Assembly (NCBI GenBank): GCA_947632175.1
Contig: CANROC010000002.1
Coordinates: forward strand, 124,001-188,000
Reading direction: 5' to 3'
DNA: 64,000 nucleotides
DNA from: an uncultured Oscillospiraceae bacterium
GTDB lineage: Bacteria > Bacillota > Clostridia > Oscillospirales > Oscillospiraceae
Shown here: positions 11,523 through 27,887 of the stretch, piece after piece
Layout of the letters: the number at the start of each line of letters is the position of its first letter
Numbering within the stretch: the first letter of the stretch is position 1
The notes under the pieces: generated by a model
The model's input: the letters and a program-made list of their open reading frames with translations, nothing else
Database searches by the model: none
What the model was told of the DNA's origin: nothing
Made by a program: the position numbers and the translations under genes

Positions 11523-11528
11523 GCGGCT

Positions 11529-13207: not shown

Positions 13208-13215
13208 GGCGCGCC

Positions 13216-13869
13216 TCAAAACCCAAGGCCCCGAAGCCACTCCGCCACGTCCCCGGCGGCGTTGGCGGCGTTCTGCATACTGACCGTAAACCCGTCGGCA
13301 ATCACCGTGGCGTCGGGCTCCAGCTCGGCGATCTTCGCCGGTGTGCCGGAGAGACGGCTGCCGTTGTGGACGGTGAAGGGGATGATGGTCTTCCCGGCAA
13401 AGTCATACTCGTCAAAAAAGCTGTACATCACCTGTGGCATATCGTACCACCAGATGGGAAAGCCCACGAAAACCGTGGCGTAGTCGTCCAGATTGTCAAT
13501 ACTGCTGGTGAGCTCCGGTCTTACGTCGTCGTCCTGCTCCTTATCGGCGTAGTCGATGAGCTCCCCCATGTTCGCGGGGTAGACGGTGCTGGTGCGGATG
13601 GAGAAAAGATCCGCGCCGGTATCTTCGGCGATCATCTCCGCCACGGCCTGGGAGACGCCCTTGGCCTCCCCGTCCACGGTGACAACGCTGGCCGAGGACA
13701 CGGCGTCCACTCCGCTGTTCTCCGCGGCGGTGAAGTAGACCACCAAGATCTTGCCCTCCGTGTCCACGTCCACATCCCCGGAGTTCACCGCGTCCCCGCT
13801 GCCGCCGCAGGAGGCGAGGGACAGGATAAGGACCACGGCCAAAAGTACACAAGAAATCGTCTTTTTCAT
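13216..13869 (-). CDS. Flavodoxin-like lipoprotein (flavodoxin_4 type)
   Basis: 217 residues from the ATG at 13869 after AAAAGGAGGG. A lipoprotein signal (SCVLLAVVLILSLASC) is followed by a Gly/Asp-rich linker and a flavodoxin fold. KILVVYFTAAENS is the first strand and FMN-phosphate loop, FVGFPIWWYDMPQVMYSFFDEY is the isoalloxazine-binding WW segment, and the C-terminus ends VAEWLRGLGF. Unlike ordinary flavodoxins it is exported and anchored. It heads an operon with DUF4405 and an esterase lipoprotein, and its promoter belongs to the four-member LysR-type set. Paralogues lie at 39513 and in the SLH fusion at 17314. Confidence 0.88.
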   Translation of the reverse strand: MKKTISCVLLAVVLILSLASCGGSGDAVNSGDVDVDTEGKILVVYFTAAENSGVDAVSSASVVTVDGEAKGVSQAVAEMIAEDTGADLFSIRTSTVYPANMGELIDYADKEQDDDVRPELTSSIDNLDDYATVFVGFPIWWYDMPQVMYSFFDEYDFAGKTIIPFTVHNGSRLSGTPAKIAELEPDATVIADGFTVSMQNAANAAGDVAEWLRGLGF

Positions 13870-13893
13870 AGGATTCGCCCTCCTTTTACCCCC

Positions 13894-13957
13894 ATTATAA
13901 AACCAAACGGGACTCCCAAGAAGTCCCGTTTGGTTTATCAGTATTAACTTATGGTTA
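13894..13957 (-). promoter_or_regulatory. LysR-type promoter A (flavodoxin-DUF4405-esterase operon)
   Basis: Minus strand. The T-N11-A dyad TAACCATAAGTTA (13945-13957) is centred 54.5 bp from the centre of TATAAT (13894-13899). A conserved GACTTC overlaps a poor -35 (TTCTTG, 13917-13922; 17-bp spacer). Between dyad and -10 there is also a 15-bp inverted repeat (13900-13936). The -10 lies 25 bp before the start codon. Aligns without gaps with the promoters at 16343, 20017 and 26596. Confidence 0.78.
13900..13936 (-). terminator. Hairpin within LysR-type promoter A, possible terminator of the upstream GNAT gene
   Basis: 15-bp perfect stem (AAACCAAACGGGACT and its complement) with a 7-nt loop. 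The same hairpin recurs with compensating changes at 20021-20060 and, shorter, at 26606-26633. The minus strand ends in TTTTAT, so it may terminate transcripts arriving from the GNAT gene. Confidence 0.5.
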
Positions 13958-14029
13958 TTACTTTCCGGTATACTGATCGGCCTCATCCCTCGTGAAGGGA
14001 TTCATAAAACGAATAATCCACCATACCCC

Positions 14030-14536
14030 TCATGTTATCCAAGGCCCTTGCGCCAGCTCCTTCACCATCAGGCAATCAGCGTGTGGCAGATGGATTGCAG
14101 GGCCAGCCACGATCCCATAGCGATAGCTGGGTTCAAAACCACGTGAAGTATAGTTTTGGGGATTTCCCTCCACAAGCACCGCTTTGAACCCAAGCTCTCT
14201 CGCCCGCTCAAATCCGTATTCCAGCAGTTCCTTTGAGATATGCCGCCGTTGCAGATCGGTCCTGACAGCAACAGGCGACAGCAGCAGAAGCTCGTCCTCA
14301 TATTTTCCTTCGATGTGGAAACGTGAAAACATGGCGTAGCCGATGATTTGGTCTTGTTCATCCGTCATGATCAGTTCCAGCTCCGGGACATAATATTTCT
14401 TTGACCTGATCTCCTCCACCAATCTGCGCACAAGCCGGCCTTCCTCCGGGCTGTCCCAATCAGAGAAAACCTTTTCAACCAACTGCAAAGCGGCGAGCTT
14501 ATATGCTTCCGAGCAAATCTTGATATTTTTCTCCAT
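14030..14536 (-). CDS. GNAT family N-acetyltransferase
   Basis: 168 residues. The acetyl-CoA loop is LSPVAVRTDLQRRHISKELLEYGFE at about residues 87-111, followed by GFKAVLVEGNPQNYTSRGFEPS, which resembles the YhbS-like GNAT subgroup. Start ATG at 14536 after GAGGAGG. The gene stands alone upstream of the flavodoxin operon, which has its own promoter, so no functional link is evident. The substrate is unknown. Confidence 0.87.
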   Translation of the reverse strand: MEKNIKICSEAYKLAALQLVEKVFSDWDSPEEGRLVRRLVEEIRSKKYYVPELELIMTDEQDQIIGYAMFSRFHIEGKYEDELLLLSPVAVRTDLQRRHISKELLEYGFERARELGFKAVLVEGNPQNYTSRGFEPSYRYGIVAGPAIHLPHADCLMVKELAQGPWIT

Positions 14537-14623
14537 TTTTTGACCTCCTCAATGGTTCTAATTGAAGTGTAGCACATAGAGAAAGTCCACGCAACAAACA
14601 ACACGGTTGTGAAAAGAAGAGTA

Positions 14624-14654
14624 GAGGGCGGAACGCTTTTTTGCGTCCGCCCTC
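14624..14654. other. GC-rich hairpin in intergenic region
   Basis: Stem GAGGGCGGAACGC / GCGTCCGCCCTC around a T6 loop. No U-run follows on either strand, so it is not an obvious terminator. It lies just downstream of the helix-turn-helix remnant at 14658. Confidence 0.5.
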
Positions 14655-14657
14655 CGG

Positions 14658-14760
14658 TTACCGTTTTTTGTGTGCTGACAGGATCTTATAGACTCCCTGT
14701 GGGGAAAGGCAGTATTTTTCAGAAAGCTGCCTCACGGATATGCCGCGTCACGCGCCAGCC
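14658..14760 (-). pseudogene. Remnant of a small helix-turn-helix (Mor-like) protein
   Basis: Read from the minus strand, the last 30 codons before the stop at 14658 give ISVRQLSEKYCLSPQGVYKI, a helix-turn-helix like the C-terminus of Mor-type regulators often carried by mobile elements. Just upstream the same frame has two stops (TAG and TGA near 14755-14775), and no start is recognisable. The remaining bases of 14537-14888 hold no other gene that I can see. Confidence 0.5.
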
Positions 14761-14888
14761 TATGCCGCGCGAAGGACGCTCCCACTGATCATATTACGCA
14801 AACATTTATCCTCCTGATAAGATTACGGGAAATGCCCGCAGAATCATGATAGCACACGAATATAAGTATTTCAATAGAAATTCATCAC

Positions 14889-15743
14889 TCACTTCTGCGT
14901 GTCCACCGGCGGGACCATCTCGGCGTAGGCCTTCAGCATCTCCGGGGTGGAGTGGTAGTAGCGGCGCTCGCGGTCAAGGGCGTTGATGCGGGCCATCTCC
15001 TCCGCTGTCAGGGCGAAGTCGAAGATGTCGAAGTTGGCCCGGATGTGGGCGGGGTTCTTGGAGCCGGGGATGACGATGTTGCCGGACTGGGTGTGCCAGC
15101 GCAGGATCACCTGGGCGTTGGACTTGCCGTACTTGGCCGCAAGCTCGGTGAACACGTCCTCCTCTATGAGCGCCCTGTCCCCGTGGCCCAGGGGGTACCA
15201 GGCCTGGATCAGGATGCCCTCGCTCTGCAGGAAGGCCTTCAGCTCCTTCTCCTGAGAGTAGGGGTGGACCTCCGTCTGGAGGATGGCGGGCTTGACCTCG
15301 CAGATGGCGAGAATTTCCTTTATTTGCTCCACGCTGAAGTTGGAAAGGCCGATGGCCCGGACCTTGCCCGCCTTCACCGCCGCCTCCATCAGCCGGTAGC
15401 CGGCGACGTAGTTCCCGGCGGGTTGGTGGATGAGAAGGAGGTCGATGTAGTCGGTGTCCAGCCGCTCCAGCGTCTTTTCCACCGCGTCGGGCTGCTCGTA
15501 GAAAGAGGGCCACAGCTTTGTTTCAAGGAAGATCTCATTACGGGGGATGCCGGAGGCCTTGATGGCCCGGCCCACGGCCTTTTCGTTCATATAGGCGTTG
15601 GCGGTGTCGATGAGGCGGTAGCCGTCCTTCAGTGCGGACAGGACCGACGCCTCTGCCTCGTCCGGGGAGAGCATGAAGGTGCCGATACCCACCATGGGCA
15701 TGCACACGCCGTTGTTGAGACCCACACACGCTTGATTGCTCAT
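14889..15743 (-). CDS. Aldo/keto reductase (AKR5-like)
   Basis: 284 residues. Cytoplasmic NADPH-dependent carbonyl reductase. The catalytic tetrad is visible: Asp and Tyr in RLIDTANAYMNEKAVG, Lys in FLETKLWPSF and His in LLIHQPAGNY. Cofactor loop VIPGSKNPAHIRANFDIFDF is near the C-terminus. Start ATG after AAGGAGGAAG. It follows the flavin reductase gene by 13 bp, so the two form an operon driven by the promoter at 16343. Three further aldo/keto reductases occur in this window. The physiological carbonyl substrate is not indicated. Confidence 0.93.
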   Translation of the reverse strand: MSNQACVGLNNGVCMPMVGIGTFMLSPDEAEASVLSALKDGYRLIDTANAYMNEKAVGRAIKASGIPRNEIFLETKLWPSFYEQPDAVEKTLERLDTDYIDLLLIHQPAGNYVAGYRLMEAAVKAGKVRAIGLSNFSVEQIKEILAICEVKPAILQTEVHPYSQEKELKAFLQSEGILIQAWYPLGHGDRALIEEDVFTELAAKYGKSNAQVILRWHTQSGNIVIPGSKNPAHIRANFDIFDFALTAEEMARINALDRERRYYHSTPEMLKAYAEMVPPVDTQK

Positions 15744-15756
15744 TTTTTCTTCCTCC

Positions 15757-16308
15757 TTATTTCAGCTTCGCCCCGTCGGAGAAGGCGTTTCCGGCCTTGT
15801 CCCCCAGGACGTAATATTCCGCGTTCACCGGGTCGAAGAGGATGGGCGCGAATTTGCCGTGGTCCAGCTTCCCGTCCGTGAGCACAGATTCGTCGATGCT
15901 GGCGTTGACGATCTCGCCGATGAGAATGCCGTCCTCATTGTACTTGAGGAATTTGCACTCCAGGGCCATAGGCAGCTCGTCGATGAGGGGCGCGTCCACA
16001 TGGGCGCTTTTCGTGGCGTGCCAACCGGCGTACTTAAACTTCTGGGGCTCGGCGTGGGCGGAGACGATGCCCACATAGTCCGCCGGGACGGTCTGCTCCC
16101 GGGTGGCAAAGCTCACGGTGAAGGCCCCGCGCTTTTCGATGTTCTCGGTGGTCTTGTGGGAGCTTATGGAGATCATGATTTTATTGCCCCCGTACTGTCC
16201 GCCCCAGGCGGCGTTCATGGCGTCGGGGACGCCGTTCTCGTCGTAGGTGGCGATGATGAGCACGGGCTGGGGATACACCCAAGGCTTGGGTCCGAAATCT
16301 TTGCGCAT
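15757..16308 (-). CDS. Flavin reductase domain protein (FMN-binding split barrel)
   Basis: 183 residues. The sequence shows the flavin-reductase-like fold: PVLIIATYDENGVPDAMNAAWGG at the N-terminus, then ISISSHKTTENIEKRGAFTVSFA, and DYVGIVSAH. These proteins bind FMN and act as flavoproteins or supply reduced flavin. First gene of a two-gene operon with the aldo/keto reductase, immediately after LysR-type promoter D. A more distant paralogue (42599) heads the TetR-controlled operon. Confidence 0.87.
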   Translation of the reverse strand: MRKDFGPKPWVYPQPVLIIATYDENGVPDAMNAAWGGQYGGNKIMISISSHKTTENIEKRGAFTVSFATREQTVPADYVGIVSAHAEPQKFKYAGWHATKSAHVDAPLIDELPMALECKFLKYNEDGILIGEIVNASIDESVLTDGKLDHGKFAPILFDPVNAEYYVLGDKAGNAFSDGAKLK

Positions 16309-16342
16309 AGCGTTTTCCTCCCGTTTTTTTTATGATGGTTCT

Positions 16343-16406
16343 ATTGTATATCAGGTTCTCTCGCTTTGGAAGTCTCAAAAAGTTATAGGCTTTTAACCTC
16401 TGGTAA
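16343..16406 (-). promoter_or_regulatory. LysR-type promoter D (flavin reductase-AKR operon)
   Basis: Minus strand. Dyad TTACCAGAGGTTA (16394-16406), conserved GACTTC 19 nt downstream of it, and -10 TACAAT (16343-16348) at the same 54.5-bp centre distance as in the other three copies. It lacks the inverted-repeat hairpin of copies A-C. That shows which positions are constrained: the dyad, the ATAA and GACTTC blocks, and the -10. Confidence 0.75.
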
Positions 16407-17321
16407 TTACACCACCAAATTGACGATTAGCCCCGTCACCAGGGAGAAGGCCATCACAAAGGCGATGTAGAGGATGAAGCGCTTCATACCCAGGACGATT
16501 TTTAAGGCGCCGAGGTTCGTGATCTTGGTGGCCGGGCCGGTGATCATAAAGGCCGAGGCGCTGCCCATGCTCATACCCATAGCCAGCCACTCCCGGATGA
16601 GCGGGATCGTCTCGCCGCCGCAGGCGTAGAGGGGGACGCCGATGGTGGCCGCCATCAGGACGCCAAAGCCCTCGTTTGTCTTTCCGAACAATTCCGCGAA
16701 CTTGTCCGCCGGGACATACCGCTGAAAGAGAGCAGACAGCAGGACGCCCAGGAGGAAGTAAAGCCCCGTGGCCTTGAGGTTGCGGCCCAGGTTGAAGATA
16801 AACCGCAGAAACAGATTGGGGTGGGTGTCGTGGCTGGCTCTCGGCTCAAAGCCCTCGAAGTTGAAAAAGGGCTTGTCCTTGTAAACGATGTGTACCACCA
16901 GCCCCGCCACCACGCCGCAAACGGTGCAGGAGACGATGCGGATGGTCAGCGCCGTCGCTCCCAGGGCCGTGGAGTACATGATGAGCTGGGGGTTTAAGAG
17001 GACGCTGGACATCATGAAAGCCGCCAGCCAGTCGTGGCGCATCCCGTGCTTGGAAAACGACGCGGCTATGGGAATCGTGCCGTACATGCAAAGGGGCGAC
17101 GCCACGCCTAAAATAGACGCCGGGATCAGCCCCCAGAGGCCCCACTTTTTGTCCCGGATCTTCTCAAAGGCCCCGTGGATGGCGTCCTTGGCGAAGACCG
17201 ATACCAAAGAGCCGATGACCATGCCCAGCACCCAGTACCAGAAGATCTGCCGGAGCTGGACGGTGAAGTAGTACCAGACGTAGATAAACTCCCGGCGGAG
17301 GACGTCCATGACCTCACGCAT
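16407..17321 (-). CDS. ArsP/SaoE-type permease (DUF318 family)
   Basis: 304 residues with about eight membrane helices arranged as two related halves. Conserved Cys-containing motifs are SPLCMYGTIPIAASFSKHG in the first half and VPLYACGGETIPLIREW in the second, as in the ArsP_1 permease family (PF03773), which includes methylarsenite/organoarsenical exporters and other permeases. The start overlaps the end of the SLH-flavodoxin-DUF362 gene by 8 bp, so the two are translationally coupled. The substrate is uncertain. The coupling to a redox protein suggests that the cargo may be a metal(loid) or a redox-active compound. Confidence 0.85.
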   Translation of the reverse strand: MREVMDVLRREFIYVWYYFTVQLRQIFWYWVLGMVIGSLVSVFAKDAIHGAFEKIRDKKWGLWGLIPASILGVASPLCMYGTIPIAASFSKHGMRHDWLAAFMMSSVLLNPQLIMYSTALGATALTIRIVSCTVCGVVAGLVVHIVYKDKPFFNFEGFEPRASHDTHPNLFLRFIFNLGRNLKATGLYFLLGVLLSALFQRYVPADKFAELFGKTNEGFGVLMAATIGVPLYACGGETIPLIREWLAMGMSMGSASAFMITGPATKITNLGALKIVLGMKRFILYIAFVMAFSLVTGLIVNLVV

Positions 17322-19350
17322 TGATGTTTACCAAGGTGTAGGTCCGGCTGCCGAGGCCGATCTCCTCGGCGTGCTCTAAGGTGTGGAGGCCCATCTGACG
17401 GTCGATGCGGTTCATGAGAGTCTCGCTGCCCTCGGCGGCTTTGCAAAGGTCGTAGGCCGCCTGGTCAATGGCCACGGGGTCCGTGGAGGCCAGGATGCCG
17501 ATGTCGTGGATGTCCGGCGCGGCGGGGTTGCCGTCACAGTCGCAGTCAATGGAGATGTTGTTGAGGACGCTGATGTAGATGATGCGCTCGCCGTTCCCAA
17601 GGTAATCCGAGACGGACTTGCCCGCCTCGGCCATGGACTCCGTGAATGCCGTCTGATCCCCGCCCCAGGGGGAGGTGTGGGATTTTCCGCCCGTGTGGAT
17701 GAGGCATTTGCCCTCCTTGGAGCCGAGGCCGATGGAGATGTTCTTGATGGCTCCGCCAAAACCCGCCATAGCGTGGCCCTTGAAGTGGGACAGCACCACA
17801 TAGGAGTCATAATTCCCGAAGTGAGAACCCACCAAATTGGTGGAGAGAACGGTTTCCGCGCCCTCGCCGTCCACGGGCAGCTCCATACTCCCTTCCGCGT
17901 CCAGGATGTCCACGTTGGCGATGGCCGTAAATCCGTGGTCCTCCGCCACCTGCATGTGCATGGCCGTCTCGGTGCGGGAGCCGCCGTAGGCGGTGTTGCA
18001 CTCCACGATGGTGCCGTTCACAGCCTTGACCACGCCCTCAATGAGCTCGGGGCGCAGATAGTTGCTGGCGGGGGGCTCGCCGGTGGAGAGCTTCACGGCC
18101 ACATTCCCGGTGGGCGTCCAGCCCAGGGCCTCAAAGACGGCCAGCATCCCCTCGGAGCTTATGTCCGTGGTGAAGTAGACGACGCTTCCGGTGATCTCCC
18201 CGCCGGAGGGCAGGTTCAGAGAGTTCACCCACTCGGTGACATCGTCCTCAGAGACATTGGAGGAGAACCTCCGGCCCTCCTGCCAGTCGCCCTCTCCGGC
18301 CATTGCCGCCAGATCCGTTCCGCTCTGGCCCATGCCGGAGCTGGAGGAGGTGCAGAAGGGGATGACGGTCTTGCCGGTGAAGTCGTTTGAGGTGATGAAC
18401 TCATTGACAGGCCACGCCGCGCCGCCCCACCAGATGGGGTAGCCCACAAAGACGGTGTCGTAGCTGTCCCAGTTGTCCGGAACGGCGCTCACAAGCTCCA
18501 CATCCCGGAGGCTCACGTCGTTGTGCTCCCGAGATACGCGGCTCTGGCTGTTGCTCCAGTTGAGATCAGCGGAGGTGTATGGCTCCACCGGCTCTAATTC
18601 AAAGATGTCCGCGTTCAGAGTGTCCGCGATGATTCGCGCCACGCGCTGGGTGTTGTCCGTGGCTGAATAGTACACAACTAAGGTGCCGCTCCCGGCGGGC
18701 TCAGTGGGCTCTTCCATCTTGTCCCGCAGGAACCGGGCCAAAATGGTGGCGGCCTGGGCGCGGGTCAGGCCGTCCTTGGGGGCGAAGCGGTTATTCTCCA
18801 CGCCGCTGACCACGTCGTTTTCCTTGGCCCAGGCCACGGCGGGCAGGGCGTAGGAGGCGATGCCGGCCTCATCCGCAAAGCCGGTGGCTGTCCCAACGTC
18901 GGGGCTGTCGGCATACCGCCAGAGGATGGTGACGGCCTGCTCGCGGGTCAGCTTGTCCTCCGGCCCGAAGTTCCCGTTGTCGTAGCCGTCCACAATATTG
19001 TTTTTCGCGGCCCAGGCAACAGCGTCGGAATACCACTGTCCCGCCGGCACATCCGGGAAGGAGGGCGCGTCCGTCACTGTGGGGGTATTTTCCACCCGGT
19101 GAAGCATCGTCACCAGCATAGCCCGCTCCATGGCCCCATCCGGGTCAAACTTGCCGTCTCCGACACCGCCCATAATGTTGTTTTCCGTGCACCAGAGGAC
19201 GTCGTCGGTGAACCACTCCCCATCCGGCACGTCGGAGTAGGGATTCTCCCCCGCCGCCTCCGCCGTCCCGGACCCCAGCGCCGTAAGGCCAATGTTGTAG
19301 ACCAGCACCAGCGCCAGAATAGCGCATCCGTATTTCAAAAGCCTTTTCAC
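17314..19350 (-). CDS. SLH-flavodoxin-DUF362 fusion protein, surface anchored
   Basis: 678 residues from a GTG at 19350, chosen because GGGAGGCG lies 7 nt upstream (an ATG at 19383 is possible but has no such site). Signal anchor at about 1-30. Three SLH domains follow (YSDVPDGEWFTDDVLW, FPDVPAGQWYSDAVAW, FADEAGIASYALPAVAW; about 35-215). A flavodoxin_4 domain spans about 222-385 (GTLVVYYSATDNTQRVARII, FVGYPIWWGGAAWPV). DUF362 fills about 400-670 (VLSHFKGHAMAGFGGAIKN, CDCDGNPAAPDIHDIGI). DUF362 proteins are often iron-sulfur linked. The combination puts a redox domain on the cell wall. An IS200-type remnant separates it from promoter B. Confidence 0.88.
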   Translation of the reverse strand: MKRLLKYGCAILALVLVYNIGLTALGSGTAEAAGENPYSDVPDGEWFTDDVLWCTENNIMGGVGDGKFDPDGAMERAMLVTMLHRVENTPTVTDAPSFPDVPAGQWYSDAVAWAAKNNIVDGYDNGNFGPEDKLTREQAVTILWRYADSPDVGTATGFADEAGIASYALPAVAWAKENDVVSGVENNRFAPKDGLTRAQAATILARFLRDKMEEPTEPAGSGTLVVYYSATDNTQRVARIIADTLNADIFELEPVEPYTSADLNWSNSQSRVSREHNDVSLRDVELVSAVPDNWDSYDTVFVGYPIWWGGAAWPVNEFITSNDFTGKTVIPFCTSSSSGMGQSGTDLAAMAGEGDWQEGRRFSSNVSEDDVTEWVNSLNLPSGGEITGSVVYFTTDISSEGMLAVFEALGWTPTGNVAVKLSTGEPPASNYLRPELIEGVVKAVNGTIVECNTAYGGSRTETAMHMQVAEDHGFTAIANVDILDAEGSMELPVDGEGAETVLSTNLVGSHFGNYDSYVVLSHFKGHAMAGFGGAIKNISIGLGSKEGKCLIHTGGKSHTSPWGGDQTAFTESMAEAGKSVSDYLGNGERIIYISVLNNISIDCDCDGNPAAPDIHDIGILASTDPVAIDQAAYDLCKAAEGSETLMNRIDRQMGLHTLEHAEEIGLGSRTYTLVNINA

Positions 19351-19379
19351 AGTTTTGCGCCTCCCTATATTGATAACAA

Positions 19380-20000
19380 TCATAACCCCCGGTAAACCGG
19401 GGGGTTGACTTACCCCTATAAGGGGTAAATGCAGGCTTAGCCCCTGGAAGGGGCTCTGAAAGTTTAGCACCGCATTACAATCTCAAGCCGCCGCTCACGT
19501 GCGGCTTTTTTCTTTGCTTACTTATTCTTGGCACCCGTAAACGGGTCCATGTACTCCTTGATGCTTATCTGGTCTGACGCGTAGTCCTCCTCCAACTGAT
19601 TCCTGATGTACTCCGCTATGACCTTTTTATTCCTTCCCACTGTGTCCACGTAGTACCCTCTGCACCAGAACGTCCTCTGTCCATACTTATATTTCAAATT
19701 CGCGTGCCGGTCGAAGATCATCAGACTGCTTTTCCCCTTGAGATATCCCATGAATTGTGATACACTTATGTGCGGTGGGATACTCACCAGCATGTGGACA
19801 CTGAGCTTCTTATCTCGTTATCTTTTTCTGCTTTCGTGAATTAGCCTCCTTGTATTTTTAGTAATGCGGCTGCCAAACCGTTACTATTATACTTGGAGGC
19901 TTAATTCCTCTCAATCACCTTTCGGGCTTGCATTAAGCTCGCCCATTTTGTCTTTGCTGAAGCTTTCTTCGCCCCCGGTAGAACCGGGGGTTGTATTGTT
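19380..20000 (-). mobile_element. IS200/IS605-type insertion remnant
   Basis: Near-identical subterminal hairpins in the same orientation mark both ends: CCCCCGGTAAACCGGGGG at about 19385-19402 and CCCCCGGTAGAACCGGGGG at about 19973-19991, each followed by TTG. Same-orientation end hairpins are typical of IS200/IS605 elements, which lack inverted repeats. Two more hairpins follow the first end (TTACCCCTATAAGGGGTAA and AGCCCCTGGAAGGGGCT). The interior contains a truncated tnpA. The element lies between LysR-type promoter B and the gene that promoter presumably drove. Exact ends are approximate. Confidence 0.72.
19518..19793 (-). pseudogene. tnpA: Truncated IS200 transposase TnpA
   Basis: The 91-residue frame matches the C-terminal part of the Y1 transposases: SVHMLVSIPPHISVSQFMGY (with the HxH-type metal site just before and at its start), FWCRGYYVDTVGRN, and the helix VIAEYIRNQ with the nucleophilic tyrosine. 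The normal N-terminal half (about 50 residues) is missing and a TAA stop lies a few codons upstream, so the gene is an internal deletion. Not expected to be active alone. Confidence 0.78.
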
Positions 20001-20016
20001 GCATAAATGCACCAAC

Positions 20017-20080
20017 AGAATAAACCAATCGGGACCCCGAGAGAAGTCCCGATTGGTTTATGAGTTATAACCTACGGTAA
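20017..20080 (-). promoter_or_regulatory. LysR-type promoter B (upstream of the IS remnant and SLH-flavodoxin-DUF362 gene)
   Basis: Minus strand. Dyad TTACCGTAGGTTA (20068-20080), GACTTC block, weak -35 TTCTCT (20040-20045) and -10 TATTCT (20017-20022). An inverted repeat (20021-20060) overlaps it as in copies A and C. The spacing is identical to the other three. It follows the CMD-cupin stop codon by 6 bp and reads into the insertion-element remnant. Confidence 0.72.
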
Positions 20081-20086
20081 GCAGTG

Positions 20087-20824
20087 TCAGGGGAGCAGAT
20101 TGTATTCCTTGTCTGTCACGGGCTCGCACCACTCGGTCCGGGTCTCCTCGCCGGGGACCTCGACGGCAAGGTGCTGGAACCAGCAGTCCTTCGCCGCGCC
20201 GTGCCAGTGCTTCACATTGGCGGGGATGTTCACCACATCTCCCGGATGGAGCTCCTGGGCTTCTTTCCCCTCCTCCTGATACCAGCCCCGGCCGGCCACG
20301 CAGATGAGCATCTGTCCGCCGCCGGTTTTGGCGTGGTGGATGTGCCAGTTATTGCGGCATCCGGGCTCAAAGGTCACGTTGAATACCGGAACCTGCGTGG
20401 TGGAAATGGGGGCAAGCCAGCTCTGCCCGATGAAATATTGGGCGAAGGCGTCATTTTTATGGCCCACGGGGAACACGGAAAGATCCTTGGCTGGAGCACC
20501 CTCCTCATCGCCGTAGACCTCCGCAATCACGGGAAACGTACTCCAGGCCTTGGGCCAGCCGCAGTAAAAGGCCAGCTGGGTGACGATCTCCACCGCCTCG
20601 GTCCTTGTCACGCCGTGTTCACGGCCCAAAACCAGGTGGCTCTTGAGCTGCGGGTATAGCCCCGCGGAGAACAGCGCCGCAATGGTGACCATGCTCCTGT
20701 CTCTGGGCGAAAGCTTATCCTCCCGAGACCACACCTCACCGAACAGCACGTCGTCGTTAAGTTCCGCGAATTTGGGAGCGAGAGTGCCGAGCGCGTCCCG
20801 TCCCGCCGTTTGTTTCTTTGCCAT
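20087..20824 (-). CDS. Carboxymuconolactone decarboxylase-cupin fusion protein
   Basis: 245 residues from the ATG at 20824, which has AAGGAGG at the right distance (a second ATG two codons earlier lies too close). Residues about 10-105 are a CMD domain (FGEVWSREDKLSPRDRSMVTIAAL..., TRTEAVEIVTQLAFYCGWPKAW), lacking an obvious CxxC redox pair. Residues about 140-245 are a cupin with metal-binding histidines (NNWHIHHAKTGGGQ and KHWHGA). Last gene of the operon running from 26563. A paralogue at 40178 lies in the TetR operon. Such fusions are common beside oxidoreductases, and the reaction is unproven. Confidence 0.88.
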   Translation of the reverse strand: MAKKQTAGRDALGTLAPKFAELNDDVLFGEVWSREDKLSPRDRSMVTIAALFSAGLYPQLKSHLVLGREHGVTRTEAVEIVTQLAFYCGWPKAWSTFPVIAEVYGDEEGAPAKDLSVFPVGHKNDAFAQYFIGQSWLAPISTTQVPVFNVTFEPGCRNNWHIHHAKTGGGQMLICVAGRGWYQEEGKEAQELHPGDVVNIPANVKHWHGAAKDCWFQHLAVEVPGEETRTEWCEPVTDKEYNLLP

Positions 20825-20836
20825 GTCCATTCCTCC

Positions 20837-21997
20837 TTATCTGCACTCCAGGAGAACCGCCAGCAGCTCGTCCCTGGTGAATTTCTTACAGCAGCCGCCC
20901 GTGAGGACGGTGGTGTCCGCGATGGACTTGAAGTCCGTGTCCGCCGGGATGTGCATCTCGGTGAAGGTGGTGGGCAGGCCCGCCTCCCTGATGAAGTCCG
21001 CAAGAGCGTCAATAAAAGCGTTTGCCAGCTCCGTCTCCGTCTTTCCGGCGGGGTCCACGCCCCAGACGTTGACGGCGAGACGCGCAAACTGGGGCGCGGC
21101 CTCCAGGAGCATGTGGCGGTATAGGACGGGGTGGATCACCGCCAGGCCCTGGCCGTGGTTGCAGTCGGTGTACGCCCCCAGCTGGTGCTCCAGCATGTGG
21201 GCCTGGAAGTCCGTGACCTTGCCGATCTTCAGCATCCCGTTCTCGCCCATGGCCGCCGCCCACACAAGCTCGCTCCGGGCCTTGATGTCCTGCGGGTCTT
21301 TCAGCGTCGCCCGGAGGTTGCGGATGATATTGCGCTGGCAGGCCTCGTTGATCTCGTCGGACAAGTTTGTCTCTCTCGGCGACCCCATATACGTCTCCAT
21401 GCAGTGGGAGAGGGCGTCAAAGGAGCCGGATATGACCTGGCCCATGGGCATGGTCATGGTGTAAGCCGGGTCGAGAATGGCGAAGTCGTAGAAGGCGCCC
21501 CACAGCGGGCCCTTGACCTTTTTCTCCTCATTGGTGATGACGGCGCCGTTGTTCATCTCCGCACCGGTGCCGAAGGCCGTCACCACGGCGCCCATGGGGA
21601 TAAATCCGGTGGGCGACCCGCGCAAAACCGTCTCAAGCTCCCAAAGGTCCTCCTCCGTCTTTGCTTGAGCGGACACAACTTTGCAGCAGTCGATGACGCT
21701 GCCGCCGCCCACGGCCAGAATGAAGTCGATATTGTTCTCCCTCGCCAGCCGCGCCCCCTCCTGCACCTTGGCGTAGGTGGGGTTGGACATGATGCCGGAA
21801 AACTCCGTGACAGTCTTCCCGGCGGCCTTGAGAATATCCATCAGTGCATCGTAGACGCCGTTTCGCTTGATGGACCCGCCGCCGTAGGCCAGCATCACGT
21901 TCTGCCCCACCTTGGCAAGTTCCGCTGGAAGGTTCTTTTCCGCCGCCTTCTCCCCGAAATAGACGGTAACGGGATAGCGGTATGTGAATGTGTTCAT
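20837..21997 (-). CDS. Iron-containing alcohol dehydrogenase (BDH/YqhD-like)
   Basis: 386 residues from the ATG at 21997 after GGAGGAAAAAG. NAD(P)-binding GGGSVIDCCKVVSA and metal-binding SGSFDALSHCMETY, HMLEHQLGAYTDCNHGQGLAV give the Asp/His ligand set of group III alcohol dehydrogenases, specifically the butanol dehydrogenase/YqhD type that reduces aldehydes with NADPH. Separated from the upstream EFR1 gene by 13 bp and from the downstream CMD-cupin gene by 12 bp. Probably detoxifies or ferments aldehydes in the same pathway as the aldo/keto reductases. Confidence 0.92.
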   Translation of the reverse strand: MNTFTYRYPVTVYFGEKAAEKNLPAELAKVGQNVMLAYGGGSIKRNGVYDALMDILKAAGKTVTEFSGIMSNPTYAKVQEGARLARENNIDFILAVGGGSVIDCCKVVSAQAKTEEDLWELETVLRGSPTGFIPMGAVVTAFGTGAEMNNGAVITNEEKKVKGPLWGAFYDFAILDPAYTMTMPMGQVISGSFDALSHCMETYMGSPRETNLSDEINEACQRNIIRNLRATLKDPQDIKARSELVWAAAMGENGMLKIGKVTDFQAHMLEHQLGAYTDCNHGQGLAVIHPVLYRHMLLEAAPQFARLAVNVWGVDPAGKTETELANAFIDALADFIREAGLPTTFTEMHIPADTDFKSIADTTVLTGGCCKKFTRDELLAVLLECR

Positions 21998-22010
21998 AAC
22001 TTTTTCCTCC

Positions 22011-22772
22011 TTATCTGGTGGATTTCGGATTATAGTACTGCCCGCGGCCAACGGTGGCCTTTGTGTAGGCGATGGCGTTTTTGGGGCAGACGTGCAGACA
22101 GCCCAGACACAGCGTGCAGCTCGCCTTGCTCCAATGGGGCCGCCCCTCGCTCAGTGTGATGGCCCCCAGGGGACATTGGGCCGCGCACTGGCCGCACCCC
22201 ACGCAACTGTCATTTACAGTGAAATTCTTCGTCCGGCTCGCCGATTTATATGCCTTTTTCATCATCAGGAGCATGGGCGCCGGCCACTCGCCCTTGACCC
22301 GGACGCGCTTCTTTTGGGAAATAGCCTCGATGATGCCGGGAAGCGCCTCGTCCGCCTTGTCCAAGGCCGACTGCACGTAGGTCTCATCGGTGAGGTCAAA
22401 GTTCGGCACCCAGTTGTCCACGGATTGCAGAAGGAAGTCCGCATCCTGCTCCCGGCCGGTCTTTCTGCGGAGAATCTTCGCCAGCTCCGCCGCCACGTTG
22501 CCGTAATGGAAACCGTAGGTGTCCACGGTGTAGACGTAGCTGCCCTCGTCAAGGCGCAGCTCCGCCTTTTCCAGAAACTCCGCCACAACGGACGGCAGAA
22601 CGCCGAAATAGGTGGGCAGGACAAAGCCAAGGGATTCGTCCTCGGCGGGCAGGATGCTGAAATTTTCGCTCTGCCAGGCATCCGTTATGGACATGACACG
22701 GTCGCCCGTCCTGGCCGCGATCCGTTCCGCCGCGTATTTGCAGTTGCCGGTGGATGAAAAATAGAGGATCAT
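22011..22772 (-). CDS. EFR1 family flavodoxin-ferredoxin protein
   Basis: 253 residues. An N-terminal flavodoxin domain (ILYFSSTGNCKYAAERIAAR, then VLPTYFGVLPSVVAEFL) is joined to a C-terminal 2[4Fe-4S] ferredoxin with two CxxCxxCxxxCP clusters (SCVGCGQCAAQCP and SCTLCLGCLHVCP). This is the EFR1 arrangement, a cytoplasmic electron carrier joining one-electron iron-sulfur and flavin chemistry. ATG at 22772 after GGGAGGG. Operon member between an aldo/keto reductase and the Fe-alcohol dehydrogenase. It could supply electrons to reductases of the cluster. Confidence 0.92.
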   Translation of the reverse strand: MILYFSSTGNCKYAAERIAARTGDRVMSITDAWQSENFSILPAEDESLGFVLPTYFGVLPSVVAEFLEKAELRLDEGSYVYTVDTYGFHYGNVAAELAKILRRKTGREQDADFLLQSVDNWVPNFDLTDETYVQSALDKADEALPGIIEAISQKKRVRVKGEWPAPMLLMMKKAYKSASRTKNFTVNDSCVGCGQCAAQCPLGAITLSEGRPHWSKASCTLCLGCLHVCPKNAIAYTKATVGRGQYYNPKSTR

Positions 22773-22793
22773 GCGGTGCCCTCCCTTTAAATT

Positions 22794-23642
22794 TTATCTG
22801 GCGAAGCGCCCGTGGAGCGCCCGGACAAAGTTCGGATCAAAATGGTCCACGATCTCGCTGTGCCCGATGTCCAGGGGCGCGATGGCCGCCATGTCCTCGT
22901 CCGTGAGCCGGAAATCCCAGATGTCCAGATTCTGCTCCATCCGTGCCCGGTGGGTGGACTTGGGAATCACCGTGACGCCCCGCTGGACGTTCCACCGCAG
23001 GGCTACCTGAGCGGCGGACTTGCCGTACTTGGCGCCGATCTCTGTCAGCACCGGGTGGGAGAATATCCCATGCTTCCCCTCGGCGAAGGGCCCCCAGGCC
23101 TCCGGCTGGACCTCGTATTCCTTCATAAGCTCCAGCGCCTTTGGCTGTTGGAAGAAAGGGTGAAGCTCCACCTGATTTACCGCCGGGACGATCTCCACCG
23201 TCTCGCAGAAGTCCGCCAGGACATGGGGGTAGAAGTTGCACACGCCGATGGCCCGGATGCGGCCCTCCTTGTACAGCTCCTCCAGCGCCCTCCAGGCCCC
23301 GTAGTAGTCGCCCATGGGCTGGTGCAGAAGATAGAGGTCCAGGTACTCAAGCCCCAGCTTCCGGCAGGAGTCCTCAAACGCCCGCTTGGCACCGTCATAG
23401 CTGGAGTCCGCCACCCACAGCTTGGTGGTGATAAACAGGTCCTCCCTGGCCACACCGCAGCTCCGTATGGCCGCGCCAACGGCCTCCTCGTTCCCATAAG
23501 ACGCCGCCGTGTCGATGAGCCGGTAGCCCACGTCGATGGCTTCCCGGACCGCCTGCTGACAAACCGCCGTGTCCCGCACCTGAAAGACCCCGAAGCCCTC
23601 CATGGGCATCTTCACGCCGTTATTGAGTATTGTGTATTCCAT
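22794..23642 (-). CDS. Aldo/keto reductase
   Basis: 282 residues. Tetrad residues lie in RLIDTAASYGNEEAVG (Asp, Tyr), FITTKLWVAD (Lys) and YLLHQPMGDYYG (His). The cofactor segment VIPKSTHRARMEQNLDIWDF is near the C-terminus. ATG at 23642 after GGAGGGACG. A 292-bp gap containing a MITE-like element separates it from the upstream SDR gene, but the orientation and tight spacing downstream keep it in the same operon. Cytoplasmic and NADPH-dependent by family. Confidence 0.93.
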   Translation of the reverse strand: MEYTILNNGVKMPMEGFGVFQVRDTAVCQQAVREAIDVGYRLIDTAASYGNEEAVGAAIRSCGVAREDLFITTKLWVADSSYDGAKRAFEDSCRKLGLEYLDLYLLHQPMGDYYGAWRALEELYKEGRIRAIGVCNFYPHVLADFCETVEIVPAVNQVELHPFFQQPKALELMKEYEVQPEAWGPFAEGKHGIFSHPVLTEIGAKYGKSAAQVALRWNVQRGVTVIPKSTHRARMEQNLDIWDFRLTDEDMAAIAPLDIGHSEIVDHFDPNFVRALHGRFAR

Positions 23643-23675
23643 ATTCGTCCCTCCTTATTTTGTTTTGCGCTTTTA

Positions 23676-23934
23676 TACTAATATCTATTAAAAGAAGACA
23701 CCGAGCGGCGAGGATTTTTTGCGTCAGGCAAGGAAGACGCCGCAGGGAATACCCATTGGTATTTCCAAGGCGGCTGACGCAACCGGGGGTCCCCGGCGGG
23801 CAAAGCCCGCTGGGGAGAGGAGGAGCCGAGCCAGCGCCTGAGGGCGACCAAAGGGAGCCCGAGGTAAAGCGGCTCGAGCGACGACGACGCGAAAAAGACC
23901 GTCGCAAATGTCTTATTTTAATTAGATATTAGTA
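23676..23934. repeat. MITE-like element with 25-bp terminal inverted repeats
   Basis: TACTAATATCTATTAAAA at 23676-23693 continues to AGACA at 23700 and is matched in inverted orientation by 23909-23934 (one indel, one or two mismatches). The 259-bp interior is GC-rich, has no plausible gene, and contains a second inverted repeat TTGCGTCAG (23719-23727) / CTGACGCAA (23774-23782) and a palindrome around 23798-23815. It abuts the SDR stop codon. It fills the only large gap in the operon. Confidence 0.7.
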
Positions 23935-24690
23935 TTAAGCCGCGCCCTGACCGCCATCCACGGCGTAGACAGCGCCGCTGACGTAGCTCGCCTCATCGGA
24001 CGCCAGGAACGCCGCCACGCTGGCGATCTCCTCGGGCGCGCCGAACCGTCCGCAGGGAATGGTCGCCGCGATGCCCTCCTCGTGGGCCTTCGCCGCCTCG
24101 TCGGAGAGATTGGTGACGTTCCAGATATCGGTGCGGATCGCGCCGGGAGCGATGGCGTTGACCCGCACGCCGTCCGGGGCCAGCTCCAGCGCCCAGCAGC
24201 GGGTGAAATTCTCCACCGCCGCCTTGGCGCCCACGTACATGGACAGATTTGGCGCGCGGTGTGTCGCTCCCACCGTGGAAATGTTGATGATGTTTCCCTT
24301 CGCGTTCAGAATGAGCGGCAGCGACTGGATCGTCACATCCACCAGCGCCCGCACATCGAGGTCAAAGGCCCTGTCGTAGTCGGCCAGGGTAATCTCCTTG
24401 AGCGGCTGGACAGGACACCAGCCCGCGTTGTTCACAAGAATATCCAGTTTCTCCCCGTATTTTTCTTTCATCGTGTCGATCACTTTTTCGACCTGCCCGG
24501 TTTTGGTGATGTCCGCCGCCACATAGGAGATTTTTTCATCTGCTTGCGCGGTCTCCTGAAGGGCGCTTTCACGCCTGCCGACGATCATCACATGAGCGCC
24601 CTCTTTGGCGAACCTGATTGCCATGGCGCGTCCGATGCCCGAACCGCCGCCGGTAATCAGCGCAACTTTACCTTCTAATTTTTTGCTCAT
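23935..24690 (-). CDS. SDR family oxidoreductase
   Basis: 251 residues. Classical short-chain dehydrogenase: cofactor motif LITGGGSGIGRAMA at about 11-24, NNAG (VNNAGWCPV), a serine in NIISTVGA, the catalytic MYVGAK (Tyr and Lys) and a C-terminal YVSGAVYAVDGGQ. ATG after AGGAGGAAAAG. The gene ends exactly at the MITE-like element. Substrate unknown. Third gene of the LysR-type promoter C operon. Confidence 0.93.
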   Translation of the reverse strand: MSKKLEGKVALITGGGSGIGRAMAIRFAKEGAHVMIVGRRESALQETAQADEKISYVAADITKTGQVEKVIDTMKEKYGEKLDILVNNAGWCPVQPLKEITLADYDRAFDLDVRALVDVTIQSLPLILNAKGNIINISTVGATHRAPNLSMYVGAKAAVENFTRCWALELAPDGVRVNAIAPGAIRTDIWNVTNLSDEAAKAHEEGIAATIPCGRFGAPEEIASVAAFLASDEASYVSGAVYAVDGGQGAA

Positions 24691-24705
24691 TTTCTTTTCC
24701 TCCTA

Positions 24706-25419
24706 TTATTTTAATATGTACCTGAGCCACAGAGTATCGTTTTCGATGACCTCCACCGCCTTCAGGGAAAACGCCTTGGGAATCACCGGCGACAGCTTAC
24801 CCGCCTCAAAAAGGGATGCGGCCTCGCTGTCTCCGTCCGCCGCTGGGACCAGGACGACGCTGAGCTCGTCCACGAGGCCCTGGGCGGCGAAGGCCCAGTT
24901 GGTGATGCCGCCGCCCGCCAAAAGGACGCTTTCAATCCCGAAGAGTTCCTTCAGCTTATGAAGCAGCAACCCGCAGTCGATCTGCCGCTTACCGGCAAAG
25001 ACATAGGAGACACCCAGGTTTTTAAGGTAGGCGATGTAGCTCGCGGACGCCCGCTCCGTCAGCGCCTCGATGACGTGGGCCTTGGGGCGGCCCTTTTTCT
25101 CCACATAGTTTCCGCTCCATTTAAGCGTCCCCTCCGGGTCCATAGCGACGATGAAGTTTTCCGCGCCGCGTTCGCCCACATAGTCTTTTCGGGGGACGCT
25201 CTCCCCCTTATCGGGAGGATCGGAGACAAAAACAGTCCCGTCCGCGTACCCCTCCGCCACCGTGGTGGTCCCGTAAATGGTGGCGGGACAGCCGTAAAAC
25301 CCGCGCAACTCCCCATATTTCCGAAGTCCCGGCCGCGTCTCCGGCAGAGCGAAATACCGCCCGTCGATTTTCCCGTCCAGGGACATCAGCATGTGACAAA
25401 TCACTCTCGGCCTGTCCAT
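24706..25419 (-). CDS. RibD C-terminal domain (dihydrofolate reductase-like) protein
   Basis: 237 residues from the ATG at 25419 after AAGGAGGAAG. The RibD_C reductase fold shows MLMSLDGKIDGRYFALPE at the N-terminus, and VLLAGGGITNWAFAAQGLVDEL and ENDTLWLRYILK near the C-terminus. RibD_C proteins reduce pyrimidine intermediates in riboflavin synthesis or other carbonyl/imine substrates with NADPH. Without a deaminase half or riboflavin genes nearby, a stand-alone reductase is more likely. Starts 10 bp after the lipoprotein aldo/keto reductase and precedes the SDR by 15 bp. Confidence 0.85.
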   Translation of the reverse strand: MDRPRVICHMLMSLDGKIDGRYFALPETRPGLRKYGELRGFYGCPATIYGTTTVAEGYADGTVFVSDPPDKGESVPRKDYVGERGAENFIVAMDPEGTLKWSGNYVEKKGRPKAHVIEALTERASASYIAYLKNLGVSYVFAGKRQIDCGLLLHKLKELFGIESVLLAGGGITNWAFAAQGLVDELSVVLVPAADGDSEAASLFEAGKLSPVIPKAFSLKAVEVIENDTLWLRYILK

Positions 25420-25429
25420 AGCTTCCTCC

Positions 25430-26563
25430 TTATTCAAAGTCGCCCTCCCACTCTCTGGGAGCGCCGCTGAACATTCCGCCCATAAAGTCGTAATTGATGT
25501 TGAAATACCGCCCGGACTCCCCCTGGTCCATGGCGCGGATAAGCTCCATCTCCTCGTCCGTCAGCTCAAAATCGAAAATCTCGATGTTCTCCTGGATGTG
25601 GTCCGGGTTTGTGGAGCCGGGGATCACCGAAAAGCCCTCCTGGATATGCCAGCGGACGATGATCTGCACCACGCTCTTATCATGGGCGGCGGCGATGGAC
25701 TCCAGCGTCTCCGCGTTCAAAAGCCGCTGATCCCCGTGGCCCAGGGGATACCAGCACTCCACCTGGATGTTGTACTGCTCCGCAAGCTCCCTTGTCCCCT
25801 GCCGCTGGGCAAAGGGGTGGCACTCGATCTGCATGATTTGGGGCTTGATCTCCTGCTCCATGATGGCATTGAAAGCGTCCATGCGGTTGTCGAAGTTGCT
25901 GATGCCCAGGGCCCGTATCTTGCCCTCCCGATAGGCCCGCTCCATGTCCTTCCAGGCCGCCACGATGGTGTCGATGTCCCCCGCCGGGTGATGGAGGTAG
26001 ACCAGGTCCAGGTATTCAACGCCCAGCCGCTCCAGCATCCCGTCGATGGCGTTGTAGGCGTCGCCGTACTCGCTGGGCCACAGCTTGTCCGTGATCCAAA
26101 TCTCCTCCCTGGGCACGCCGCTGTCCCGGATGCCCTGACCCACGCCGCGCTCTTGAAGATACCCGTGGGCGTCGTCCAGGTGGCGGTAGCCGGACCTCAG
26201 CGCCGCCGCCACAGCCTCACGGGAGGTCTCGTTGAGTACGCCCAGGTCGCCGTTCTCCAAGCTCTGGATCTGTGTGCCAAGCCCAAACTGGGGCATCTGC
26301 ACGCCGTTATTGAGGGTGATGAAGGGGACGCCCTCCACGGACGTGATGCGGGAACCGTCCGCAGGGCCGCTGCCGGGGGCCTCGACAAGGGTGTCAGCGT
26401 CAGGAGCTGGCGGCTCGTCACTTTGGGTCGGTCCATCACTTTGGGCTGGCTCCGTACTTTCCTGCGATTCGGGGGCCGTATCGGTGTTTTCCGTTGCCCC
26501 TCCGCAGGCGGTCAGGGAGATGGCGAGAGCAAGCGCGAGCAACAGCGCGACTGTTTTCCTCAT
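25430..26563 (-). CDS. Lipoprotein aldo/keto reductase
   Basis: 377 residues. A lipoprotein signal (VALLLALALAISLTAC, lipobox LTAC) precedes a 60-residue acidic Ser/Pro/Glu linker. The complete aldo/keto reductase fold follows from about residue 75, with catalytic Asp/Tyr in RHLDDAHGYLQERG, Lys in WITDKLWPSE and His in VYLHHPAGDID. Export of an NADPH enzyme is unusual. First gene of the eight-gene-interval operon to 20087, behind promoter C. Either it works outside with another electron donor, or it has become a binding protein. The tetrad is intact. Confidence 0.88.
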   Translation of the reverse strand: MRKTVALLLALALAISLTACGGATENTDTAPESQESTEPAQSDGPTQSDEPPAPDADTLVEAPGSGPADGSRITSVEGVPFITLNNGVQMPQFGLGTQIQSLENGDLGVLNETSREAVAAALRSGYRHLDDAHGYLQERGVGQGIRDSGVPREEIWITDKLWPSEYGDAYNAIDGMLERLGVEYLDLVYLHHPAGDIDTIVAAWKDMERAYREGKIRALGISNFDNRMDAFNAIMEQEIKPQIMQIECHPFAQRQGTRELAEQYNIQVECWYPLGHGDQRLLNAETLESIAAAHDKSVVQIIVRWHIQEGFSVIPGSTNPDHIQENIEIFDFELTDEEMELIRAMDQGESGRYFNINYDFMGGMFSGAPREWEGDFE

Positions 26564-26595
26564 GGAGCTGTCCTCCTTTTACTTCTTATATCAAT

Positions 26596-26659
26596 AGTAT
26601 AAAAAAATCGAGACCTCCTGAGAAGTCTCGATTGGTTATCTGATTCTTACTTAAGGTTA
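26596..26659 (-). promoter_or_regulatory. LysR-type promoter C (lipoprotein AKR operon)
   Basis: Minus strand. Dyad TAACCTTAAGTAA (26647-26659) begins right at the LysR stop codon, with the GACTTC block, weak -35 TTCTCA (26619-26624) and -10 TATACT (26596-26601). A hairpin (26606-26633) with a T7 run on the minus strand makes the same segment a good terminator for the LysR gene. Same geometry as promoters A, B and D. Confidence 0.78.
26606..26633 (-). terminator. Terminator of the LysR gene embedded in promoter C
   Basis: AATCGAGAC / GTCTCGATT stem followed by TTTTTTT on the minus strand, 25 nt after the LysR stop. Confidence 0.65.
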
Positions 26660-27565
26660 TAACTGATTCTCCGCCAGAACTTTCCCCAGCGCCTCCATGA
26701 ACCGGGCCACCGTCTCGGAGGGCTCAGGGGAGTAGAGGATGCCCACCGGCATTTTGTGCTCCCATTGGACGGGGATGACCTTTAAAAGCGGGTGGACCAC
26801 GTTCCAGCTCTTGATGACCGTCAAAATATCCCGGCGCTGTTCGCACTGGTTGAAGATGTCGATGCTGTAGTAATCGAAGTCCTCAATCTCGATTTGCGGG
26901 TGGTTCTCCTTAAGGTCCCGGCGCAGCTCGTCCATGTTCCGGCACCAGCCGCGCTTTGCCATCAGGAGATTCCTGCCGTAAAGGTCCTCCACCGCGAGAC
27001 TGTCCTTTGATGCCAGTGGGTCATAGATGGACACGGCGCAGCAGATCGGTTCCATAGTAATGACAAGCCCCTGACAGTTTCGGTTTTTCATGAGAAGCTC
27101 GTCCGGGAAGCCGGTTACCACGTCGATGTTCTGTCCAAGATTCTTCAATATCTCCACGGCGTTGTCCTGGGTATTCTCAAAGGGCACCAGCTTGAAGCTC
27201 ACATCGGCGCAGTACTCGTGGATGCGGGGCCACAGGTCCATGAGCATCTGGGCGGGCATCATGGGCGAGGTGCCGATGCGCACCACTTTGTCCGCCTCCA
27301 GCATGGCGTTTCGTGCCCGCAGGACCGCCTCCTCGCAAAAGCCGGTGATGTACTTGGCGTCCTTGTAGAGCGACACCCCCGCCTTCGTCAGCGTCAGCCC
27401 CCGGTGGGTCCGATCAAAGAGCCGCACGCCGATGTCGTTCTCCAGCTGGTTTATCTGCTTGATCAGCGCCGCCGATGTAATAAACAGCTCCTCCGCCGCC
27501 TTATTGAAGCTCCCCGCCTCCGCCGTGCGGATGAAGGAGGTGAAGTTCAGGTTGTTGATGTTCAT
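26657..27565 (-). CDS. LysR family transcriptional regulator
   Basis: 302 residues from the ATG at 27565. The N-terminal winged helix reads FIRTAEAGSFNKAAEELFITSAALIKQINQLENDIGVRLFDRT, the family signature, and is followed by GLTLTKAGVSLYKDAKYI. The rest is the periplasmic-binding-like effector domain (VRIGTSPMMPAQMLMDLWPRI...). It lies immediately upstream of promoter C, in the same orientation. Four promoters of the block carry T-N11-A dyads at the position where LysR proteins bind, so this gene product is the obvious candidate activator. Its effector may be a redox-active or carbonyl compound, by inference only. Confidence 0.93.
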   Translation of the reverse strand: MNINNLNFTSFIRTAEAGSFNKAAEELFITSAALIKQINQLENDIGVRLFDRTHRGLTLTKAGVSLYKDAKYITGFCEEAVLRARNAMLEADKVVRIGTSPMMPAQMLMDLWPRIHEYCADVSFKLVPFENTQDNAVEILKNLGQNIDVVTGFPDELLMKNRNCQGLVITMEPICCAVSIYDPLASKDSLAVEDLYGRNLLMAKRGWCRNMDELRRDLKENHPQIEIEDFDYYSIDIFNQCEQRRDILTVIKSWNVVHPLLKVIPVQWEHKMPVGILYSPEPSETVARFMEALGKVLAENQL

Positions 27566-27861: not shown

Positions 27862-27887
27862 ACTGTCTATTTGTTGCTATTTTGTGG

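Follow-up and report, generated by a model that had tools for sequence, protein, structure and literature searches.

Genes for LysR-type transcriptional regulators (LTTRs) are commonly found in divergent arrangement, and proteins of this family are typically tetramers; the E. coli regulator YqhC belongs to another family, AraC. As portions of the literature on these systems describe, LTTR promoters carry a T-N11-A motif and a second site just upstream of the −35 box, where the regulator contacts RNA polymerase (PMC5002191), and YqhC controls the yqhD-dkgA pair (PMC4132294). Here, we describe four 64-bp elements in a 64,000-nucleotide stretch of an uncultured Oscillospiraceae genome (GCA_947632175.1, contig CANROC010000002.1, positions 124,001 to 188,000; hereafter, the window) that very probably serve, to judge from comparative sequence evidence, as promoters for a single regulon under the LysR-type protein of the gene at 26657-27568, with the predicted terminator of the lysR gene itself nested inside a promoter.

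Like LTTR-activated promoters, all four window copies carry a T-N11-A dyad, a further conserved block beside a weak −35, and a good −10, and the candidate regulator combines HTH_1 and LysR_substrate domains. By analogy, we infer the same layout for these elements, as the original prediction had proposed; the geometry, from dyad spacing to −10, fits that proposal. The locus departs from the described arrangement in four respects—lysR stands in tandem upstream of a target, its stop codon lies inside a dyad, a terminator-like hairpin is nested in three of the four operator-promoters, and four operons share nearly one 64-bp sequence.

The original prediction had described four minus-strand blocks of 64 bp aligning without gaps, with GACTTC 19 nt past the dyad, a −10 hexamer in each, and 54.5 bp between the centers of dyad and −10, and every one of these features proved correct at the positions in Table 1, with 25 of 64 columns invariant against about 1.2 expected from base composition. 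It had also placed the end of lysR exactly at copy C, which is wrong; the gene runs into copy D, and copy C is located 3' of the CMD-cupin gene. Across the 3,543,571-base genome, the pattern TWACCNNARGTWA-N17-21-GACTTC has four matches, namely copies A–D (none for the reversed control), and a looser 38-nt pattern allowing up to 3 mismatches returned the same four sites and no control sites. Leave-one-out matrices regained each copy at 29–42 bits, with the best non-member in the window at 16.6–18.6 bits. By the refined (iterated) matrix, copy B is the weakest member, at 20.6 bits; an element like it precedes a flavin reductase gene in a genome of the same genus (G020, L108; G numbers denote genomes and L numbers loci). 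We rejected a mobile repeat as the source of the similarity because the genome holds only four copies, each leading an operon.

A scan with the LysR protein yielded 50 loci, 63–98% identical, in metagenome-assembled genomes of Oscillospiraceae, Lachnospiraceae, and unplaced Clostridia; these genomes carry 'Lapin' in their isolate names and therefore probably derive from rabbit gut. A matrix search of related genomes, the check proposed beforehand, was run with the four window copies only: it found in these loci 83 sites scoring above 20 bits, compared with about 1 in shuffled or reversed controls. After refinement, the matrix found 89 sites scoring more than 22 bits across 71 loci (L009-L079), where the best reversed control scored 4.2 bits, and gave the consensus TAACCTnnGGTWAgAACTGATgAACgAATCGAGACTTC, followed after 20 bp by TATAAT. 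At least one element was present in 41 of the 50 LysR loci, and in seven of the element-free ones (L046, L048, L049, L054, L056, L057, and L058) the lysR match sits at or near a contig end. Throughout the locus gene maps, elements are oriented like lysR and lead the same enzyme families. The T-N11-A form predicted for the dyad holds for all four window copies, but across 75 unique 38-mers its ends are conserved at merely 73% (T1) and 71% (A13); better conserved is a core of ACC...GGT, AACT, AAC, and ACTTC.

The spacing of these elements fits a promoter with a poor −35. Among 98 elements chosen on their first 38 bases only, the best TATAAT match falls exactly 20 bp past GACTTC in 89; the mean match at this offset is 5.2 of 6, whereas offsets from −12 to +6 reach no more than 3.2. 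With a spacer of 17 bp, the −35 reads TTCTNN or TTCCNN, matching TTGACA at just 2–4 of 6 positions in 113 unique elements, as poor as originally claimed, while the −10 matches TATAAT at 5–6 of 6 positions in 84 of the 97 unique elements whose selection did not involve the −10 (a restriction applied because the set of 113 was partly chosen by a pattern containing TANNNT). The conserved second block covers the −35 region and ends at the −35.

We then asked how often element and regulator occur together in genomes drawn from the family of the window (n = 300) and from its class (n = 391), calling LysR present at E ≤ 1e-60 and the element present where a 63-nt pattern, composed after viewing the refined-matrix elements, matched with at most 2 mismatches. 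This pattern took the place of an earlier one (6 of 300 genomes, 2 control hits, and a chance-like match in G183) because the latter was over-tuned to close relatives. In the family draw, 17 genomes had the pattern (control, 0), 21 had LysR, and 14 had both, and three more element genomes (G157, G284, and G298) carry fragments of a lysR orthologue no more than ~60 nt away from it; in the class draw, the numbers were 11 (2 control hits), 16, and 9, with lysR pieces at the element in G664. Taken together, the 26 distinct element genomes comprise 21 with LysR, 4 with lysR pieces within ~60 nt, and 1 with neither, such that 25 of 26 have LysR or pieces of it near the element and 21 of 35 LysR-bearing genomes have the element—counts that take no account of genome relatedness, which would inflate their significance. 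The interpretation as a LysR regulon put forward in the original prediction gains support from this comparative tie between the element, this LysR subfamily, and the same oxidoreductase families.

Several of these genomes merit separate description. The fragmented lysR beside the element in G157 (L099), G284 (L098/L101), G298 (L100), and G664 (L115/L117) suggests loss of the regulator with the element persisting. In G315, the element (L118, C41:862-924) stands beside Fe-ADH (iron-type alcohol dehydrogenase), SLH, and SDR genes, 862 bases from a contig start in a genome that is 99% complete. In G547 (L123-L124), the cluster is expanded to six elements and two LysR copies, which all share one orientation and lie within ~35 kb. 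Finally, in G505, G622, G020, and G374, elements occur on contigs other than that of LysR, those of G505 preceding esterase and aldo-keto reductase (AKR) genes; such off-contig elements match the prediction for a trans-acting regulator, yet contig breaks may explain them.

The LysR protein matches HTH_1 (3.5e-19) and LysR_substrate (8.9e-09) in Pfam; in NCBIfam, none of the 25 matches listed of 51 reached its cut-off, the best being HcaR at 82 of 356 bits. In a midpoint-rooted tree of 83 LysR proteins, all 59 element-bearing rows fall into one group of 73 rows with support 100/100. The other 14 rows of this group have no element in the fetched DNA, several due to a short contig, and the 10 rows outside it, at <42% identity, also have none in the fetched DNA. 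In 14 of the 39 elements adjacent to lysR, by which we mean within 450 nt of it, the dyad contains the lysR stop codon (gap −3).

Copies A, C, and D contain a feature that had been missed—their GAGACTTC or GGGACTTC block lies in the left arm of a strong hairpin, with RNA folds of −26.2, −28.7, and −17.4 kcal/mol (z = −7.4, −9.1, and −4.7), respectively; copy B has no hairpin (z = +0.6). The hairpin of D was picked up by a terminator scan, and the last T of its T-run is the first base of the −10. Those of A and C, with 5 T in the next 8 nt but interrupted, were not picked up. To count hairpins in relatives, we used a near-fixed register over a table of 83 elements (41 loci plus the window, 24-bit cut), which holds three of the four window copies because copy B falls under the cut. 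A hairpin was found in 36 of 39 lysR-adjacent elements, each with 4–7 T among the following 8 nt (a count that includes those of the −10), in 0 of 15 elements directly after Est (one of them, in L031, with its downstream gene off the contig), in 0 of 6 before AKRc, and in 16 of the 23 others. Free folding with at least 8 pairs gave a looser count of 37/39 lysR-adjacent and 22/44 other elements; the stricter 36/39 and 16/44 are used here. In L025 and L027, whose esterase gene does not come after lysR, the esterase element is hairpin-free and the element following lysR keeps its hairpin; in L018, L047, L050, and L055, lysR is followed by another small gene, and a hairpin lies between this gene and the esterase gene.

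The hairpin also covaries. In 41 unique segments, 93.9% of cells are paired—a figure inflated because segments were preselected for at least 9 of 12 pairs—with two-sided changes at five pairs and common G-U pairs. These two-sided changes number 19 cells against 4.0 in shuffles, and 0 of 500 shuffles was as high, though relatedness and the preselection of paired segments inflate this result as well. The set comprises 41 of 43 segments, L035:12975 having been dropped for fortuitous pairing and L012:17276 for an indel; copies A and D of the window are not separate rows, as A pairs in another register and the segment of D is identical to that of L009. We rejected the idea that every such promoter includes the hairpin, since copy B goes without it, as do the elements located after Est or before AKRc. 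Most likely, judging by its sequence, it is a terminator that serves the upstream unit (usually lysR) and has merged with the promoter that follows; in A and C, which come after other genes and have longer stems, the U-run is interrupted, which makes this role less sure. Part of the 64-bp similarity is this overlapping hairpin, here read as a predicted terminator.

Such overlap raises the question of whether the blocks are mainly terminators between tandem operons, similar as terminators and not as operators. Strong folds in three of four window copies and the hairpins with T's in 36 of 39 lysR-adjacent elements of relatives speak for this, but it is very unlikely, as copy B and all 21 elements after Est or before AKRc are hairpin-free and, of those 21, 20 nevertheless have ACTTC, 14 GACTTC, and all a TANNNT at the 20-bp distance; the upstream dyad and the fixed −10 would also go unexplained. 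The covarying stem with its G-U pairs, followed by U's, might also recall a regulatory RNA leader (an attenuator or riboswitch) of the downstream operon. However, the stem should not be in the transcript of this promoter because it lies upstream of the −10, hairpin-free copies lead the same kinds of operon, and a search of Rfam over 11000-31000 found only a tRNA at gathering score, leaving this explanation scarcely credible. A known RNA family for the hairpin was rejected on the same Rfam result.

It is improbable, too, that the inverted repeat acts as DNA, whether as the operator of a second regulator or as a second LysR dyad, rather than as an RNA hairpin. The left arm does lie within the conserved block of hairpin-free copies too, and hairpins follow non-lysR genes as well; against this, hairpin-free copies are without the right arm, the hairpin is most constant directly after lysR, and a small HTH protein and two response regulators, identified by eye, recur in just 4–5 loci each. 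The arms, moreover, covary with frequent G-U pairs, which break DNA symmetry and therefore favor an RNA stem over a DNA palindrome. Another regulator could instead bind the element, its link to lysR being inherited neighborhood. With most copies in the lysR cluster, linkage alone could yield co-occurrence, and G315 has the element where LysR was not found; still, we regard this as unlikely, given that the element stays beside LysRs of ~46–98% identity across several families and rearranged neighborhoods, was not found beside a more distant LysR group, and in 4 of 5 exceptions is accompanied by lysR pieces.

A number of observations weigh against promoters of a single LysR regulon with a nested lysR terminator. 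The ends of the T-N11-A dyad are conserved at just ~72%; after lysR, L017 keeps just a dyad-like piece and L032 nothing. The majority of elements share the cluster of lysR itself, and among the off-contig cases, the LysR of G505 is ~6 kb from its contig end, two of the three elements are no more than 3.3 kb from the ends of their contigs, and near the third lies an open reading frame (ORF) for a more distant protein of LysR type. In G315, element and regulon-type genes are present and a LysR orthologue was not found in the genome. Conversely, 14 of 35 distinct genomes with a LysR match are without the 63-nt pattern at up to 2 mismatches: 8 of these have only LysR matches of at most 45% identity, and in the other 6, with LysR at 48–52%, versions with 3, 4, 4, and 6 mismatches lie within 1.5 kb downstream (G269, G492, G638, and G555, respectively), the contig of G571 ends too early to judge, and the best version in G448 has 7 mismatches, no better than reversed controls (7–9). 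As for termination, the regional terminator scan is barely above chance (22 against 16.1 expected, sd 4.2), hairpins also follow non-lysR genes (the 16 of 23 above, including four before Est behind unrelated genes), and the pairing frequency is inflated as described.

For the LysR regulon, which we continue to favor, the sequences suggest the following course for binding, activation by an inducer, and termination. LysR, probably as a tetramer, would recognize the dyad centered near −64 (TAACC-N3-GGTTA type) and also, downstream of it, the block AACTgaT-AAC--aT-GAGACTTC, which extends as far as the weak −35; once induced, it would recruit RNA polymerase to the well-conserved −10. The lysR transcript would be ended by an intrinsic terminator inside the next promoter, with GAGACTTC as the 5' arm of its stem and the spacer by the −10 as its U-tract, a terminator presumably built into the promoter because lysR is in tandem, immediately upstream of its target operon. 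It is conceivable, though doubtful, that nesting is itself part of regulation, coupling the end of lysR transcription to the firing of the next promoter: LysR on a dyad overlapping its own stop codon, and a lysR transcript folding over the activator site, would act as a roadblock or a termination-linked autoregulatory switch. If so, one 64-bp stretch would be stop codon, operator, terminator, and promoter together.

As to function, the gene families listed for the four operons in the original prediction were found (Table 1), except that copy C proved to be split from its operon by an insertion. The best NCBIfam matches are PRK15138 (YqhD-like; we take it to be YqhD itself) and PRK11565 (DkgA-like), all below cut-offs, with scores of 229.7 of 645 and of 213.5, 271.6, and 241.7 of 425. 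The esterase-like protein of operon A has no Pfam match at E ≤ 0.001 and a weak NCBIfam match to a feruloyl esterase (49.7 of a 1200 cut-off). The products of the regulon are reductases dependent on flavin, Fe-S, and probably NAD(P)H, together with an esterase-like protein and a permease, so its likeliest job, by analogy, would be to detoxify reactive carbonyls or other electrophiles by reducing them. In placing YqhD- and DkgA-type aldehyde reductases under a single neighboring regulator, it resembles the E. coli YqhC regulon as far as the source describes it (PMC4132294). It differs in its LysR-type regulator, in its Clostridia hosts, and in also containing flavodoxins, DUF362, EFR1, RibD-C, SDR, CMD-cupin, the esterase-like protein, and the permease; with the YqhD and DkgA matches under cut-offs and the regulator LysR-type, we do not assign it to the YqhC-type aldehyde regulons.

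For a LysR subfamily that occurs in several Clostridia families and fits no NCBIfam equivalog among the matches listed, these results predict the operator, the layout of the promoter, and the genes controlled, and they make its inducer and function directly testable. They also offer a conserved case, relevant to the insulation of tandem regulator-target pairs, in which an activator-binding block would double as the stem of a likely intrinsic terminator just upstream of a −10. In searches of the open-access PMC literature, judged by titles and abstract openings, we recognized nothing as this regulon or as such an operator-terminator overlap.

Table 1. Positions of the elements, genes, and neighboring features within the window
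Feature	Position	Strand	Details
Element A	13894-13957	minus	dyad 13945-13957; −10 TATAAT 13894-13899; hairpin 13900-13936 (17 pairs)
Element B	16343-16406	minus	dyad 16394-16406; GACTTC 16369-16374; −10 TACAAT 16343-16348; no hairpin
Element C	20017-20080	minus	dyad 20068-20080; −10 TATTCT 20017-20022; hairpin 20021-20060 (18 pairs)
Element D	26596-26659	minus	dyad 26647-26659; GACTTC 26622-26627; −10 TATACT 26596-26601
Hairpin in D	26601-26633	minus	stem-loop 26606-26633, 12 pairs, 4-nt loop; T-run 26601-26605; proposed lysR intrinsic terminator
lysR (HTH_1 + LysR_substrate)	26657-27568	minus	from ORF list and Pfam; TAA is the first three bases of dyad D
Operon A	11529-13869	minus	flavodoxin, DUF4405 membrane protein, esterase-like protein
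Operon B	14889-16308	minus	flavin reductase, DkgA-like AKR
Operon C	16407-19470	minus	SLH-flavodoxin-DUF362 protein, ArsP-type permease
Operon D	20087-26563	minus	DkgA-like AKR, RibD-C, SDR, DkgA-like AKR, EFR1-type flavodoxin-ferredoxin, YqhD-like Fe-ADH, CMD-cupin; presumed co-transcribed
IS200/IS605-like remnant	19380-20012	minus	~630 bp; Y1_Tnp fragment 19518-19793 (Pfam); between promoter C and its operon

The insertion at copy C begins within a few bases downstream of the −10, roughly where promoter C would start transcription, and is missing in the relatives L009, L010, and L052, where the −10 abuts the SLH region directly. In this strain it may therefore keep promoter C from driving operon C in the usual way; the inserted DNA has a strong promoter-like site of its own (19914-19886), matching at 11 of 12 positions. 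The operon C start at 19470 is a mechanical ORF start inside the insertion, and the true start is probably near 19383 or further in. Within 27750-29412, a tRNA-Arg(CCG) stands beside a split gene that reads, by its ORFs, as tyrosine-recombinase-like (28174-28425 and 28489-29412), likely the remnant of an element integrated at the tRNA.

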